From Lichina pygmaea (lineage: Eukaryota; Ascomycota; Lichinomycetes; Lichinales; Lichinaceae): 64,000 nucleotides of DNA. The notes below the pieces were generated by a model. It had not been told where the DNA came from, made no database searches, and worked only from the letters and a program-made list of their open reading frames with translations. Positions 1-26,367 of this stretch are shown here, one piece after another. Every line of letters starts with the position of its first letter. The first letter of the stretch is position 1. Both the position numbers and the translations under genes were made by a program. The stretch lies in contig OY730171.1 in NCBI GenBank assembly GCA_963422465.1, positions 4,050,202-4,114,201 of the forward strand, written 5' to 3'.

Positions 1-500
1 GGAGGTCGTGGAGCCAGCAATCTCCACAGTGTCTCAACAACACCACCAATTTCCAGACGAGGCAGCACCTTGGATACCGATAGAACATCTGATCTAGAAT
101 CAGATAGGCCCATGAAATCTACAATTTTATCGCTCTTTTGTAAAGTTATCAACGTTCTAAATTTGATCTGTTGAGGATCTGTCATCGGTGTAGTAGCTAC
201 TCTAGTCTTTCAGGAACACTACAAATTTTACGACAATTCTAAAACTTCAGGGATTGTACTAGACAAGTAGGGGAATCCAATGAGCAAATCAGATTCCAAT
301 TTAGTCGTGGCGTTGTGAAGTTATAGAACTGCAAAGCCGATTCTGTGGAAGACAACCGTTGCGCTGTCCACACCGTTGCGCTGTCGGACACCCTTACGAA
401 GTAAGGGTGTCCTGACCGAGCTGGCGAGGGAGCGGGAGGTACGAGGGTACCGAGTCCTCCAAGGCACGGGTATCGGCTCACTACTACTCCGTGTCGCCGA
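1..500. mobile_element. Truncated relic of the large inverted-repeat element family
   Basis: This segment resembles the element at 18908-19796. Bases 408-431 match that element's right terminal repeat (19742-19766) with one change in TGTCCTGACCGAGCTGGCGA. The AT-rich DNA at about 1-330, read on the minus strand, aligns with the element's interior near 19110-19230, sharing a CTATAACT motif, a GATTCCC(C)TA block, a CCCTGAAG block and TTTGTAGTGTT. The terminal repeat here looks internally shortened (about 388-497). The element runs off the window edge. It has no coding capacity that I can see. It is older or more decayed than the copy at 18.9 kb. Confidence 0.6.
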
Positions 501-5249: not shown

Positions 5250-6665
5250 TGTGCGGAATATGTTTCAGTTAGGTCTAGCGTAACGCTTATTTGAGATTGG
5301 CTCCCGTGGTACGTACGTAGGCCCCCATGTGGCCCAATGCCCCCCTCGCTTAAGGGTACATACCTGGGTACTTTCAACCCAGCGACAATTAAGAGCAAGT
5401 GTGAGTACTCCAGAATTAGTAACAAGTCAGCCTCTGATACCCTGACCGCTCAACTCCACACAGCTGACGGAGCCCCCTGCTGGAGCTAAGAGACAATGGC
5501 CTGCTGTGAGGGGGACAAGATGATTATTGGAAGTTGTGTCATATATTTGAAGTGGTTCGACTCCACTTGGCGTTGGTCTCGGTAGCTCAAATGTTTCGCT
5601 TCTCTACGATGATCATTAACGCCCTCTCGGACTATATGGCCCCCTATCTAGCCGACTGACACCACCCGTGCCATGGGGGGGTATTACCCCCCCATGGCAC
5701 GGGTACTGACTAAGCCAGCCCTGGCCCTGCCGCTGCAACATCCCCACACCACCAGAAATAACATAAATGAGGACTGACTACGTGCCGGTGAAGCTGGGTG
5801 TTGGATACGACTAGAAAAAAAAAAATCCGACCGAGATATGTGTGCTGTGTGATGCTACCGAGACTTATGACAGATGTGGCCTGGTCAGCTTCCAGATGTA
5901 CTTTTGGGATTGTTAAGCGGGGAAGAGGAGGGGAGCAGGGCTGAGGCAGGGCTTGGGGTCAGGGTCAGGGTCAGGGTCATGGACATGGGCATGGTCATTG
6001 TCGGGAGCTAGTTGCCCGACCGGGCGCTTAGTCAGTTAGATCCTGGCTAGGCAGGCGGGTGCAGCCGCACTCATCTATCGCGAGTACGAAGATGTCGGGC
6101 ACTAAGCCCAGACATAGTAGCCTTTTGGCTCAGTTCCGCTCTAGCCTACTTCGTACGACTGCGTGCGACGGTCATGGTCCAGCGGGAGGCCAGCAGCAGG
6201 TCCAGACATCAGGGCCAGAGGTATCACAGGGGCCAGGGAATCCATCAGAGATTGTGCCAGAGATGGCACTGGAGATGTCGCAGTGGCTGGAGATTTCATC
6301 AGAGACATCAGAGGTAGAGACTTGCAACCTGTAGGTAGCGCTCGGTACGTTTTACCTGAATTCTCTGGGTAATACATATGTACAAAGTTTTCATGATAAT
6401 AGAGGCTCTGGATGGTGACAGCGACAGGAATCAGCAACTGACCGGTACATATCCAGGGGGTGTGCGTACAGCAACGCTAGCGGGGGTGTGCGTACTTGTA
6501 CAGAATCATTATGGGGGGGGGAGGTACGGCAGTACCTCCTCGGCACCGGTAAGGGGGGGGACCAGTCGCTGGTGAATTGTACCCTTGTACATACGTACTG
6601 TGGGAGCCAATCTCATAGAAGTGCTGCGCTAGACCTCAATGAAATCCGTTCCGTACGCATTACCT
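5250..6665. repeat. Inverted-arm repeat, possible decayed element
   Basis: Reading outward, the plus-strand block at 6600-6665 (GGGAGCCAATCTCATAGAAG then GCGCTAGACCT) matches the minus strand of about 5250-5310 (GGGAGCCAATCTCAAATAAG then ACGCTAGACCT). Identity is around three quarters over about 65 bp and falls off outward. The arms enclose about 1.3 kb with no coding potential. This could be the ends of one old DNA element, or two separate insertions in opposite orientation. Confidence 0.45.
5665..5703. repeat. Perfect 17-bp-arm hairpin related to the large element's terminal repeat
   Basis: The arms CCCGTGCCATGGGGGGG and CCCCCCCATGGCACGGG are perfectly complementary around a TATTA loop. 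The left arm plus loop also occurs inside the 148-bp terminal repeat at 18.9-19.1 kb. The flanks do not match that repeat, so only this core is shared. Confidence 0.8.
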
Positions 6666-14843: not shown

Positions 14844-14967
14844 TCGCCGTCTTGACGTTGTAACAATACGTTCTTTGCTGTGTGCTCGCTATATCCTTTG
14901 CCACATACTCGCTATACCCACGACCATCTCACCTAGTTGTATTCTCCAATCTTTCTTTCCGGTCTTG

Positions 14968-16477
<1,510 letters not shown>

Positions 16478-18660
16478 CTATAGTCTCCCGACGCCCTGTC
16501 GTAGCCTTGCCGCCGCCGTAGACGGTCCATCGACGCTGACGTCCGGCCACGAAGACAAGGCAACCTCGACGTCCTCGGTGAAGGTGGCGCTGTTGTGCAC
16601 CGTCGTGCCACCGAGCACGACCCGGATGCCCGGCGAGCTGGCGTTGATCTGCGCGATCGTCTTCGCCTCTTCGTACGTCGTGCCGCCGAGCATGAAGACG
16701 ATAATGTCCTGAGGCTTGTCCCGCACCGGCGCCGCGCCGGAGGACGTCGAGGCCGCTGCTGCCGCCGAGGCCGCCGCCGAGGAGGCACCAGAGCCCGACG
16801 ACGGGCCCGGGTTGGTGGTGGACCGCGAGAAGGCCGACGGTCCGGTGCCGGGGTCCAGAAACGGGTACTGCTGCTCGCGTAGACGGCCTTTGATGAGGTT
16901 CTGCAGCGTCGTCGCCAGTCGGGGCGAGTGCTGCGTGTACACGTTCTCGACGCCCTTGAGCCCGCGGAACCGATCTCGCGCGCCCGAGAAGATGGACGAG
17001 TTCTCGAACAAGTCCGAGAAACCCGTCGATGATGCCGGCACGGCCTGCAGAGAGTGGTGGTACGCAACGATCTTCCTGACCACGGCGGCACGATGGTGGG
17101 GGAGCCCCGCCGCCGCCGTGAGCAGGTCGAGGAGGACCGCCAGGGCGTTGGACGGGTGCTTCTCGTACCGGATCGCGTAGAGTGCCACCAGTCGGAGCTT
17201 GTTGTCTGCTGGTATGCTGGGAGACTGCAGCAGACGCTGAACGGTCTGAGGGCGTGTCAGCGCCCAGGCTATGAACAACGGCCGGATCGACCGACCTTCA
17301 GATCGCTGCCATGACTGTCGTTGCACGCGAGACTCTGCTCGAGCTCGCTCGTCTCCAACAGACTGTCTTCGCTGACTCGCCGGCTCAACTCGCCTACGAG
17401 CGTGACGTGCTTGCTGACGTTGCCGGACAGCTTGCGGAACTCCGGGTACTCCTCGACGAAGCGCTTCATATCCGCGATGGATTCGATGTTCGCGTTGTTT
17501 TTCGTCTTGGACTGATATTGCTCCACGTAGTCCTTGATGTTCCCGCCCAGGTCTCCAAAGTTCGAGTACATGTTCTTCTTAAAGAACGGATCCTGGTCTT
17601 GGGAGAGCACAATTTCCTTGAATTTCCATCTGTCAGCGTCGACACGGAAATCAACGGCCACGTAGATGCATGTCTACCTTGAGCTCGGGCCTGATGTCTG
17701 GAACATGGCCCAGGTCCACCCTCCCGTTGCGGATACCAAGCAGTTCGTGAACCATGCCTTGGTACGTCCACTGCGTGAGCAGCGGCGTGATTGGATCATC
17801 TCGTCGATCCAGTATCAGAAGCACCGGCGGTGTGTCTGTCCTGCGAAAGTCGAACAGCTGCTCCTCCTGCGTGACGATGTACCGGACTTCGCTTGCCAGT
17901 TTCTTGGCCACGAGACTGTTCCTTTCGTATCTGATCAAGGGCTTCTTCTTCAGAGACAGCAAAGCCGCGATCAGCCCCTCGGTGGTGCGTCGAAGCGCGT
18001 CGGCATCCCACAGCTCTGGGCTGCTTCCCCAAATCTTTGTCTGAGGATACGTCAAGTCGAGCGTGAATAGATCTGGATTGACGACTATAAAATCGGCAAA
18101 GTGCTCTTGCACCGCTCGTACAACCTCATGGTCGTCTGCTTCTGCGAGGCGTTCCAAGGACGACTTGCGCACGATGTTGCTAAAATCTGCCTCGAGGTTA
18201 GGTCTTTCGTCGAGACCCTCGGGAATCGTCGACGACATACATAGGTAGTACTCGCCGTACTTGGGCTCCCGCAGCTCGTCGATCAAGAACTGAATAGATT
18301 CCGGCGAAGGCCGTACGAAGCTTATGCATCGCAGATGGCGCATCTTCTCTCGGGATTGGTTGTCTAGTCGGCTATCCATATCAATCAAACCAGTCGACTT
18401 TAAGCCTTCTCTAACCGGGAGCATACGTACTCGATGAGGAAGACTTCGTGATTCAAAAGCGACGATTGGGTGGTTGCCGTAGACATTACCGACACCTGAA
18501 AGCAAGTCAGCGGGACTCTCAGCAAAGCTCGAAGATGAGCGCGTACCGTCTCGCCATCCAGCAATAAAATCTTCATCTTCGCCGATGGCATTCCGGAGGG
18601 GGCATCTCCGGCAGCCACCATCTTGGCGACGTATCCAGAGACAGCCAGTGCCACATCCAT
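16478..18660 (-). CDS. VPS45: Vacuolar protein sorting protein VPS45 (SM family)
   Basis: Sec1/Munc18-family regulator of syntaxin-type SNAREs (Tlg2/Pep12-like) in Golgi-to-endosome traffic; cytosolic and peripheral on membranes. 653 aa in five exons (18660-18547, 18495-18431, 18371-17678, 17616-17296, 17245-16478). Family hallmarks in order: MKILLLDGET, TTQSSLLNHEVFLID, REKMRHLRCISFVRPSPESI, LREPKYGEYYL, LERLAEADDHEVVRAVQEHFADF, LLILDRRDDPITPLLTQWTYQGMVHELLGI, FFKKNMYSNFGDLGGNI, and the C-terminal DIIVFMLGGTTYEEA...VVLGGTTVHNS. Intron 3 ends at TTCAAG, because only an AAG acceptor restores PELKEIVLSQDQDP; a CAG 13 bp upstream would break the frame. A Ser/Ala-rich low-complexity insert lies before the last conserved block. 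The first 27 residues before MKILLLD extend beyond many family members, so a later start at MKILLLD is possible. Confidence 0.95.
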
Positions 18661-18907
18661 TTTTGCTCGGGCCCAGCCAGCAAGTCCGTCCTTGGGTGTG
18701 AGAAGCTAGTGTGGGTTCCTATATATGAATAAGGACTCCCATCCATCATCGGCATTCAGATGGTTGGCGGAAGTGAGCATGATGGAATCGCGTAGCAGCT
18801 ACGACTTACGACATTCAATACATCGTACGTATGTACATACGTACCTCCGTACGGAAGTACCTCCGTACTGAGGTAGCCTGGCACTGTACGTAACGTACGA
18901 AGGTACC

Positions 18908-19055
18908 CGTGCCGAGGAGGTACTGCCGTACCTCCCCTCCCTCGCCAGCTCGGTCGGGACACCCTTTCTCCGTACCCGTGCCATGGGGGGGTATTACCCA
19001 CCCCCCTCCCGTCCCTTCGGTACGTCCGGGACACTCCTCCACCAGGAGGGGTGTC
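18908..19055 (+). repeat. Left terminal inverted repeat of the 889-bp element
   Basis: 148 bp, mirror of 19649-19796. It contains nested palindromes: the outer GAGGTACTGCCGTACCTC and the internal CCATGGGGGGG...ACCCACCCCCC block, so a single strand could fold on itself as well as pair with the other end. Confidence 0.85.
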
Positions 19056-19648
19056 GGACAGTTCAACGACTCGGACGGTTCAATGATCACTTTTTTGTCG
19101 GGATCAATTGCAATGTCTATAACTCCACAACACAAACACTAAATAAAGATGTAAGTGGCTTATTTGATTCCTATACTTCTGTACTATCATCTCTGAAGTT
19201 ATAGGCCTCTCTAGATTTTTGTAGTGTTGCTGAGAAGTCATAGTAGTTGTCACTTGAGAATGAAGTATCAACGTTGTCAATTCCACAATCTCTATAACTC
19301 CATAACTGGATAGACAAGTAGTCTTTTTTATGTGCTCACCTGATTCCCCTGCCTTTCTTCTATCATCCCTGAAATTGTAGGCTCTTCCTGGGTAGTTATT
19401 GTAGTCTGACTTGTCTACGTAGTAGTCCTTCTCAATCCTCTCATGAGAGAGCTCGCTTCTCTCACATTAGTAAGCTTTTTCTACTCTCAAAGTCGCTGTA
19501 CTGGGACATCAAATTCCCTGGCTAACTTTGGTGCGGTGATAGTATTTTTACAGTCAGAGATAGAATCCACACCTTCTGTGATATGAGCCTCGGCTTCCTT
19601 GTAAAATTTGGCCATGTTGTGGAGGAGTTGTAGTGGTTTAAAACTGGT

Positions 19649-19796
19649 GACACCCCTCCTGGCGGAGGAGTGTCCCGGACGTACCGAAGGGACGGGAGGG
19701 GGGTGGGTAATACCCCCCCATGGCACGGGTACGGAGAAAGGGTGTCCCGACCGAGCTGGCGAGGGAGGGGAGGTACGGCAGTACCTCCTCGGCACG
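19649..19796 (-). repeat. Right terminal inverted repeat of the 889-bp element
   Basis: 148 bp, reverse complement of 18908-19055 with one observed difference (a G/A within the CTCC.CCAGGAGG hairpin). Its outermost 25 bp also occur at 6522-6546. Confidence 0.85.
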
Positions 19797-20307
19797 AGTA
19801 CGTATGTACGAAGATACCCATAGGTGCCTTGATTAGTGATTACTCATGGTGCTGAATAAGCAATACGTGATGTCGGAGTAAGGAGGCGTGACATACGTAC
19901 CAGTATTCCGTACAGTACCAGGCTTCTTGGCCGGCCGAGGTCGGACGCGTGGGCGGATAGAAGTCTGCAAGCATGCCCGCACATCCGTTCGAGAACATCT
20001 TTTGTAAAAGAGAACTATAACAGTCGCTGACTCGGCAGAAGTGATGAGAATGCCCAAGTAGTGCCGCCCCAGCATGCTTGCAGACTTGTGCCCTCCGACC
20101 TCGGGCCAAAACAAAGTGATGCAAATGAACTCACAATGTTTGGAAATTCCTGTACGGTACGGAAGTATATCCATGTGGGATTGGCATCCTGATATCAGCT
20201 CTTGCCCCTAGAAATTGCTCCTCTCTCTGCAAGACCATTCATATGGAGTACAGGACCACACAATAGACTTGTCACTCTCGCTGGCCTGATAGCAGCGGTC
20301 TATGACC
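19797..20307. other. Intergenic DNA upstream of ALE1
   Basis: No gene recognised. It starts with a GTACGTATGTACG palindrome abutting the element and otherwise has no clear feature. It includes the ALE1 promoter. Confidence 0.5.
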
Positions 20308-22388
20308 ATGTTGCCCTATGTTGATGATGGTGACTATTTTCCATCGCATCACTTCGTCCAGCTGTCTCAAATCTAATTAAACTGGAGTGTAGTGTTTGGC
20401 TATCTCTCCAAGCCAATTGGGGCATCGCAGGATGAGCGTACGTGGTTCAGCTCTGCATGTCATGCCTGGTTTCAACTGACTATCGAGAGCAGTCAAGCTG
20501 CTCACGACCTTTCTTCTATCCTATCCTCTTGCAGGCCTGCTCAAGAGAGTCCCGGACGCGCGGCCTGACTACAAGAATCTCTTCATCATCGGGTGTGTTA
20601 CACTCCGGTTCGCCATCAATTCCAAGCTCATGGAATTCAGGGTGTCGCTGTTCTATCTCGTCGGATTGTTCGATTTATGGGTCGGCATCCGGACGCTGCT
20701 GATAAGTTCCACTGGAGCCTACCTGATTGCGGCGAAAATTCGTGGCCCTTATATGCCATGGATTGGCTTTGTCTTCCTCATGGGCCATATGTCCATAAGC
20801 CATATCCTCCGGCAGCATCGGGAAACACCTGAAGTTGTAGATATCTCGGGTAGGCTCCTGCGCCTAGCGATAGGGGATAAGACTAAGATGCCCTCTAGGT
20901 GCGCAGATGGTCCTTGTGATGAAGGTACAGCCTCAATGTTGTTCAAGCCGGCTCCCTTGCTGAGCTGCATTTGCATCCAGCTATCGGCGTTCTGCTGGAA
21001 TGTGCACGATGGCCAATTACCGCAGGAAGGTCTCTCCGAGTTCCAAAGAGACAGAGCCATACGGGAGCTTCCCGGGCTTCTTGACTATGCAGGCTACGTG
21101 GTGCGACCGAGCCCTTTCCGTGCCAGGTCTCATCCGGAGCTGAACCGTCAGTAGCTTTTCTTCCCGGCACTCTTGGCTGGGCCTTCCTTCGACTATGCCG
21201 AGTATCGACGCTGGATTGATACAAGTCTGTTCAACATTCCCGCTGGCACCGACCCTTCGAAGCATCCGCCTACACGCAAGAAGAGACGAATCCCGCGAAG
21301 TGGCACACCGGCTACCATGAAACTGGTTGCAGGGCTTCTGTGGATACTCGCATTCATCAAGCTGTCTGGTATGTACGGTCCCGATAGTTTGACGAGCGAC
21401 GAGTACCAGCGCTCGAGCTTCCTTTATCGAGTCCTGCTCCTCCATGTGTTTGGGATCGTGGCACGGACGAAGTACTACGGTGTGTGGGCTTTGACCGAAG
21501 GCGCCTGTATATTGTCCGGCCTCGGCTACAAGGGAGTCGATCCCAAAACGGGCCGCGTCCAGTGGGATCGACTTGTCAATGTCAGGCCATGGGCTGTCGA
21601 GACCGCTCAGAACAGCCGGGCCTACTTGGAGAACTGGAACATCAACACAAACCACTGGCTGCGCAACTACATATATCTGCGAGTGACTCCGAAAGGGAAG
21701 AAACCGGGCTTCCGAGCAAGCATGGCCACTTTTGTGACCAGCGCCTTTTGGCACGGCTTCTATCCTGGCTACTATCTCACCTTCGTCCTCGCTAGCCTTC
21801 TGCAGACGGTGGCGAAAAGTAACGATCCAAAGATATCCTTTGCCGGATAGGTGCTGATATTCGCTCGGAACAGACTTCCGACGTTGCATGCGCCCATTGT
21901 TCCTAACACCCACCGGCGACCCCACCTCTTACAAGCCGCTTTACGATGTCGTCTCGGTCTTGTGTACCCAGCTTGCCTTCTCTTTCGCCGTGGCCCCCTT
22001 CGTCCTTCTCGAATTCTCAACCTCCATCCGTGTCTGGTCCAGCGTATATTTCTACGCTCCGGTTGGCACGATCTTGTCGATGGTCTTCTTCGCCTCTCCC
22101 GCGAAGCATCATCTCGTCAAGCTGCAGGGACAGCGTTATGGAGAGGCAGCGACAGCGGCTGCCGCTGCCGCTGCCGCTGCGAAGGAGTATCTGACTCAAA
22201 GTGATGCGCGAGCAACAACGACGCGACAGCCGCAAGTGGAGAGCCCGCCGATCATGGGTGTGCCTCACGATCCAGGTCAGGATCTGGATGAGATGATCGG
22301 CGAAGTGAGCGAGAAGGTGCCAATTCGGAGAAGAAATGGCAGCATCGTCCAAGCTCAACAGAAAGGATCTGTCCGATCCGAGCTGTGA
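20308..22388 (+). CDS. ALE1: Lysophospholipid acyltransferase ALE1 (MBOAT family)
   Basis: ER multi-pass acyltransferase that re-acylates lysophospholipids in the Lands cycle. 566 aa in eight exons (20308-20329, 20393-20437, 20493-20592, 20641-20849, 20899-20924, 20981-21100, 21155-21818, 21874-22388), introns 48-63 bp; the fifth exon is only 26 bp. Conserved blocks: MLPYVDDVFG at the start, LLSYPLAGLLKR, PWIGFVFLMGHMSISH, DISGAQMVLVMKLSAFCWNV, PGLLDYAGYVLFFPALLAGP, the catalytic-region ENWNINTNHWLRNY and SAFWHGFYPGYY (active His), then NFRRCMRPLFL. The Ala-rich, charged C-tail (about residues 480-566) is cytosolic-looking and poorly conserved. The first exon was accepted because MLPYVD is the usual start of fungal homologues and both short introns restore the frame. 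MTO1 follows on the same strand, 339 bp downstream. Confidence 0.95.
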
Positions 22389-25612: not shown

Positions 25613-26367
25613 GGATACTGTACCTCCATCATTTCTCTACCAGTGAATGTCATCATACACCATCATCCTTTTCTCTGCAAGCAAATATGATCATAATCCC
25701 CCCCCTCCTTCCTCCCACACACTCTGTTCAGTACTCACCCCCTCTCTCCACAACCAACTAAGCCAAAGTAATACTATAAACCTCCCATCTTTTTCTCTGC
25801 ATTGTCAGTGTCAGTTGTAGCTGTAGTATGAAACATTGTATTCTTGTCTCTTCTTTGCAACTGTTGTAGCAAGTCAGTAGATGTTTGTTGTTCTTGCTCC
25901 ACACAAGCAGTGTAGAGTTGATGGTTTGTTTGTGTTTATTTTTCTTTCTGCCGGAGAGTGTTGGGTTTCAGCTCTCTGTCTCTTCCTCCTTCCAATCTAT
26001 ATCCCTCTTCTCAAATGTTACGTCACACTCATTATGTACTTTTGTACGGGGTACAGATAGATGCATTACAGACCCACACTTTACAGATCCACAGTAGCCA
26101 CACACACACACACACACAGACAAACAGTAAAAAAATATATCAAATAGTCCAATCACAGCAAAACCCACTCAAGTACATACCAAGTACAGACACCAAGTTC
26201 TTGCCATGGAGGAACAGAGTAAAGCTGGCCGACAGTAGAGAATGATGTTTGGAGAGTAGAAAGACAAGTACTTATAACACAGTGAAGAAGAAGAAGAAGA
26301 AGAAGAAGAAGAAGAACAAGATTTGAGTGCGATGAAAGAAGAGACGGATGGAGAAGGATGGAAGGAG

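Follow-up and report, generated by a model that had tools for sequence, protein, structure and literature searches.

Fungal miniature inverted-repeat transposable elements (MITEs) such as mimp of Fusarium are short, TA-flanked and protein-less, and are thought to be mobilized in trans by a transposase of the Tc1/mariner group. The Trem elements of Paracoccidioides, in the passages that describe them, belong to this group and have HTH_psq, CENP-B-type and DDE domains, and MITE-like Trem leftovers were deemed possible (PMC2836289). For FotC, the relevant passages of a further paper give a TA duplication, ends of ~100 bp and a DD35D signature, the last of which is reported for the Passer family too (PMC7386202). 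Here, we analyze an inverted-repeat locus in a 64,000-nucleotide stretch of Lichina pygmaea DNA, hereafter the window (GenBank assembly GCA_963422465.1, contig OY730171.1, positions 4,050,202 to 4,114,201 of the forward strand; C3:4050202-4114201 in our numbering). A sequence-only reading had described the locus as one recent, non-autonomous DNA transposon at 18908..19796, with 148-bp hairpin-forming ends, no coding frame and a family that could not be named. Its non-autonomous nature is confirmed, but the element is a nested pair of miniature Fot/pogo derivatives: very probably, two related miniature DNA transposons are involved, an inner element A and, around it, a palindrome of type E. The labels A to F are those of the present analysis and denote six end types told apart by the bases 3' of a common motif.

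The arms are as the earlier reading placed them, with 18908-19055 and 19649-19796 complementary at 147 of 148 positions and a sole mismatch at 19041. At 133 bp, the longest exact inverted repeat of the interval 17001-22000 is not due to chance, because 20 block-shuffled versions give 11-16 bp. The limits, however, lie 4 bp further out on each side, at the TAs of 18904 and 19800: counted inward from these, the arms mismatch at 18907 and 19041 and nowhere else over 152 positions, and their similarity stops at offset 152. Nor are the arms the ends of one element, since each consists of a 65-bp E end abutting an 83-bp A end. A single 889-bp element with 148-bp ends is ruled out by the family copies, which terminate at 18973/19731.

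The boundaries of A follow from its copies in the 32.5 Mb, 8-contig genome. Searching with the 889 bp gave at least 155 matching pieces, rather than the single-copy hit that would have contradicted a transposon, and 40 of 274 first-look candidates were scored. Among the matches listed, A copies with an intact left end begin at query 50-66, mostly 64-66, right ends fall near query 824-830, and none but the self match and the locus L036 extends from query 1 into the interior. Of the 39 loci fetched, 36 were read together with their flanks (all but L033, L034 and L040); the intact ends among them are TACCCGTGCC and GGCACGGGTA, apart from minor changes, and the DNA beyond is unlike. Because the intact ends of the copies lie there, with unlike DNA outside, we take the inner unit to be that of Table 1. 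Its ends, of ~83 bp, start with TA followed by CCCGTGCCATGGGGGG, and the family spans 759-835 bp. Relative to L014, the right repeat of the window core is shorter by ~55 bp of inner sequence, and GAC stands at both borders of the deletion as judged by eye.

Each outer arm, 69 bp long, represents one of the two ends of an E-type element, TA followed by CCCGTGCCGAGGAGG: TA and CCCGTGCC stand at the outer limits (with one change on the right), then GAGGAGGTAC. A search with the outer arms, in which 40 of 134 candidates were scored, gave 95% identity over query 1-74 at C7:3153342 and 83-93% for most other partial matches among those listed. E-type ends also occur in L017, L051, L058, L128 and L129. 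Arm-matching ends belong both to elements of 0.97-1.2 kb (L049-L052, L058) and to short derivatives of 129-152 bp, namely L017 (129 bp), L128 (152 bp) and L132; query 1-66 is matched separately in L017, as an independent short element. The D-type transposon end at window 395-435 shares 90% identity, over 41 nt, with a stretch starting at 19730. In L017, the 129-bp E-type element (578-706) lies just 12 bp from an A element (719-1452).

The locus might alternatively be a single mobile unit of 897 bp, an A lineage with captured E ends, the outer CCCGTGCC and TA (right, one change) being plausible ends. We regard this as extremely improbable: among the matches listed there is no second A with E arms, and the one further match there that reaches inward from query 1, L036, is a B element nested in a D element and has a dissimilar flank on its right.

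With the core removed, the outer arms form a ~140-bp palindrome with TA at its centre. By eye, the left (cf. L129) and right (cf. L130) halves of the E subterminal hairpin are joined there at the TA, and the junctions read ...CTCCG/TA on the left and TA/CGGAG... on the right. Uninterrupted, the D/E hairpin gives 112 strand matches with none in the control, some places matching on both strands. The hairpin-forming ends of the sequence-only reading hold modestly for E (z -2.06) but not for A, whose ends fold no better than shuffles (z -0.15, +0.22).

The common end motif connects the locus to transposase-bearing relatives. TACCCGTGCC occurs 589 times (295+294) against 98 (46+52) for the reversed pattern; the first 100 places listed are all on C1. 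TA-flanked CCCGTGCC ends also border full-size Fot/pogo-type transposons of 2.2-2.5 kb, so that the larger relative with the same ends around a transposase, which the earlier reading proposed to look for, does exist as regards the motif. L104 (2231 bp) has an exact inverted stretch of 125 bp, L105 (2236 bp) one of 134 bp (130 bp within the TAs plus 4 outside), and the D-type L131 (2493 bp) one of 68 bp (65 bp within the TAs plus 3 outside), D-type ends thus being shorter than B-type ones. A D-type element of 2542 bp straddling the left edge of the window holds a stop-free 504-aa frame with DDE_1; just before this frame stands an ATG that is followed two codons on by a stop. In Pfam searches, DDE_1 was found in L106 (4.9e-17), L104 (1.4e-22), L105 (9.8e-6) and L131 (1.1e-14), HTH_Tnp_Tc5 exceeded the cut-off in L106 and L104, and HTH_psq was sub-threshold in L106 (E 0.0029). 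The DD35D signature appears as D301-D337 in L106 and D62-D98 in L131, with 35 residues in between; in L104, the motif search for D-D spacing found no second D. An F-type element of 3.9 kb (L048:618-4523) holds a 135-aa frame like the N-terminus of the transposase, to which Pfam assigns no family. Other frames in this element are weakly like zf-RVT, below the Pfam cut-off, and are perhaps retrotransposon pieces.

Searched against the genome, the 135-aa frame matched 97 places, including the core and sites directly upstream of DDE_1. Among 15 hand-picked further pairs of helix-turn-helix (HTH) and DDE matches, 14 have the end motif upstream (<=1 mismatch), and the remaining pair, L118, nevertheless has its D-type hairpin; at HTH places without a paired DDE_1 match, the motif was present in four of five (L123-L126, not L127). 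The ten best DDE_1 loci (L068-L077) have no flanking CCCGTGCC pair, with one motif each in L070 and L073, and nine of the ten have other inverted repeats. Since their ends are different or none were found, the genome holds further Fot/pogo groups. A Tc1-type DDE_3 driver was considered and rejected: there were 22 matches, mostly weak, and none of the ten fetched had an end pair round the transposase match, although L078 has a 54-bp tiny element beside its match and L080 and L086 one motif each (<=1 mismatch).

In their DDE_1 domain, DD35D signature, HTH_Tnp_Tc5 with sub-threshold HTH_psq, TA duplication and length of 2.2-2.5 kb, the full-size relatives resemble Fot and FotC, and the exact B-type end stretches of 125-130 bp compare with ~100 bp for FotC, as far as the passages on it describe (PMC7386202). 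Because of the TA duplication and long ends, compared by description only, they point to FotC. The features tested thus point to the Fot family of pogo transposons as described there, and to a name for the family that the sequence-only reading left unnamed; unlike Fot and FotC, the window element is without a transposase. The likeness to Trem, on the passages concerned, is that both are fungal Tc1/mariner-group transposons, and the difference is the nesting of sister elements here (PMC2836289). Among 5.39 million open-access papers, 24 contain one of five end-motif strings; the 20 listed contain only the 10-mer, and none of these 20 is titled on transposons. Compared with mimp, A is longer (759-835 bp), has longer ends of other sequence, and has Fot/pogo rather than impala parents.

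The core itself looks like an internal-deletion derivative of such a transposon, judging from its sequence similarities. Positions 1-416 of the core align to the final 414 bp of L104, its 3' end (72.5%, 1e-58), and 638-759 align in two pieces to its first 174 bp, the 5' end; per-piece identity of both segments to the L104/L105 ends is ~73-85%. Core 131-234/244 has secondary matches in the same stretch of L103, L104 and L105, for which reason the tandem duplication was probably inherited from the 3' part of full-size relatives. The duplication, already noticed in the earlier reading, is present as a partial one of 90% identity (Table 1). The claim that there is no coding frame stands in that no open reading frame of >=200 aa overlaps the element, but fails in that a decayed transposase start lies on the minus strand. 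Its 42-codon remnant is identical to the L105 N-terminus in 22 of 44 columns, and no Pfam family was found for the 42 aa; wider transposase similarity extends over 19424-19648 on the minus strand (38% identity, E 1.8e-7), with two stops inside. The core is MITE-like in that it is multi-copy, shares both ends and the adjoining interior with transposase-bearing relatives in the same genome, and has no transposase beyond the remnant.

A TA duplication can be read at one nested paralogous site. In L049, the uninterrupted sequence is ...GACACCCTTACTCCGTAAGG..., i.e. ...CCCT/TA/CTCC..., and in its relative L036 a B element stands between CCCT TA and TA CTCC. In L122, a D-type end is inserted at the same place of another D-type end, so that sister insertions at the first TA of the hairpin were verified twice. 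As a strong hot spot, however, the D/E subterminal hairpin was rejected (<=3 mismatches allowed, 27 places, as many as in the control). A G beside the TA is favoured, in 50/84 with the window's own rows and 46/80 without them. Nor was a general preference for palindromic targets supported: over 40 sites, window rows left out, p was 0.043 with 3-nt arms, 0.30 with 6-nt, 0.26 with 10-nt and 0.15 with 20-nt arms; with these rows included (42 sites), the values are, in the same order, 0.018, 0.13, 0.049 and 0.0145.

We propose the following order of events. The ~140-bp E palindrome most likely arose by an earlier deletion between the subterminal hairpins at the two ends of an E element, which are mutual direct repeats; L128 (152 bp) and L017 (129 bp) are short E-type derivatives of a comparable kind that carry no insert. 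Internal deletion of a Fot/pogo-type transposon would have produced A, with both ends and the first transposase codons kept. A full-size relative's transposase, acting in trans, may then have excised an A copy at the TA-flanked CCCGTGCC termini and inserted it at a TA, the putative target being the dyad centre of the palindromic E derivative; the ends, the TA duplication and the homology are what suggest such cut-and-paste. Because A would have entered the centre of a palindrome, the E arms appear as an outward extension of its repeats, giving the look of a single 148-bp repeat.

Two A copies could instead have entered both hairpins of a full-size E element, recombination then removing the E interior and leaving one A. 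The junction TAs are indeed those of the E hairpins, left and right (L129, L130), and sister elements do enter this hairpin (L036, L122), but two insertions plus a recombination are required, and when the genome was scanned for inserts at the hairpin TA, nothing appeared but the window arms and, with 3 mismatches, the far side of the insertion in L036 (control 0). We therefore consider this route unlikely.

Several points weigh against insertion of A into an E palindrome by a Fot/pogo transposase. The evidence for TA duplication is one nested empty-site pair (L036 and L049) at another locus, and no exact empty site for the present locus was found among the scored outer-arm candidates. Because palindromes are not preferred generally, a perfect palindrome as target would be exceptional, and another origin is possible. 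Among the scored candidates, none was a full-size transposon with ends of type A, for which reason the driver of A is judged from its B and D relatives, to which the longer pieces of the core are ~68-78% identical.

The near-identity of the arms bears on both the age and the origin of the locus. The A arms of the window are identical at 82 of 83 positions, as against 32.6-94.0% in 14 other copies (16 were tried and L015 and L023 skipped; the values are depressed by indels and G-runs), and both carry two uncommon substitutions: a T that none of the 28 other arms has and an A that two of these 28 have. Such figures might suggest a local inverted duplication, in which a template switch copied the left arm to the right side. 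Strong similarity ends, however, at the outer TA boundary of the E element, with none of the irregular extension of an inverted duplication; the inner junction of the right arm can be put down, by comparison with L014, to a 55-bp deletion of an ordinary kind; and the shared changes would follow from limited arm-to-arm conversion, which would not itself create the structure. We thus give inverted duplication very little probability, and infer arm-to-arm conversion with partial homogenization of the window arms.

The view of the locus as a recent element with a currently or recently active driver is not upheld. From the majority consensus, 13 of 16 A copies differ by 2.6-4.8% (window 3.7%) and three by 10.4-13.1%, and the window core is at most 92% identical to every match >200 bp among those listed. 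End identity gives no date, because the frames of L104 and L105 look interrupted (introns may account for this) and yet their ends are identical over 125 and 130 bp; given these elements and the consensus distances, we rejected it as a dating method. Some B copies are closer to each other (96-97%) and are probably younger. Repeat-induced point mutation (RIP) was rejected as the main cause of divergence: C-to-T changes number 97/1686 at CpA, 61/1823 at CpC and 49/1721 at CpT, but peak at CpG (52/676), so that any RIP-like CpA bias is at most mild.

Solo hairpins with the same ends are a further feature of the genome. The pattern TACCCGTGCC-N{8,38}-GGCACGGGTA occurs at 40 places, against none for the reversed-pattern control; these tiny elements are 28-57 bp long (40-45 bp in 25 of 40), are mostly near-palindromic, and in 29 of 40 fold with >=80% of bases paired. 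An N{39,69} version gives 6 places (control 0), four with long G-runs and one overlapping an N{8,38} place. In 12 of 40 cases a tiny element is exactly what joining a left and a right end of a fetched element gives, and in 28 it is so within two edits; eight need 3-5 edits, and four need 8-9 and do not fit. Exact fits weigh more than near fits, because the two break points are free and the comparison has no shuffled control. We infer that tiny elements arose by deletion between terminal palindromes acting as mutual direct repeats; direct transposition of minimal elements could also have produced them. A D-type solo hairpin of 43 bp lies near the A element of L010. Elsewhere in the window are a long CT microsatellite tract (14963-15200) and GA-rich tracts near 26357 and 34801.

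Table 1. Features of the locus and related elements (window positions unless a contig or locus is named).
Feature	Position	Strand	Remarks
Outer E-type element, left end	18904..18972	+	TA + 67 bp; TA, then CCCGTGCCGAGGAGGTAC...GGGACACCCTTTCTCCG
Inner A-family element, non-autonomous	18973..19731	.	759 bp TA to TA; intact-ended copies elsewhere share these limits
A left terminal inverted repeat	18973..19055	+	83 bp incl. TA; 82/83 identical to right one
Partial tandem duplication	19111..19306	.	19111-19131 and 19286-19306
Decayed transposase N-terminal helix-turn-helix start	19490..19615	-	ATG 19615, 42 codons, then stop
A right terminal inverted repeat	19649..19731	-	~55 bp inner sequence of L014 absent
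Outer E-type element, right end	19732..19800	-	67 bp + TA; matches D/E-type ends
D-type Fot/pogo transposon, 3' end	1..472	+	C3:4048132-4050673, straddles window's left edge
A-type near-palindromic derivative	5663..5705	.	43 bp; same ends; left end's first base changed, CACCCGTGCC
Tiny-element examples	L064:189-231, L066:154-193, L067:100-141		TA both sides, intact CCCGTGCC ends

Taken together with the locus, the solo hairpins allow a tentative general proposal, which we put forward as a possibility: in a group of Fot/pogo elements of this genome, palindromes located at both ends and slightly inside them act as mutual direct repeats, loss of what lies between them leaves solo hairpins of 28-57 bp or palindromes of ~130-150 bp, and the latter can become landing sites for sister elements, giving composite inverted repeats like the present one. 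For a repeat that had no name, a likely class of driver can now be named, and the locus cautions against assuming that inverted repeats which are equal and nearly identical are the ends of one element or mark its youth. If the proposal is true, solo hairpins would be the counterpart, for cut-and-paste elements, of solo long terminal repeats, and the series, if general, would provide an easily counted trace of past element loss in fungal genomes.
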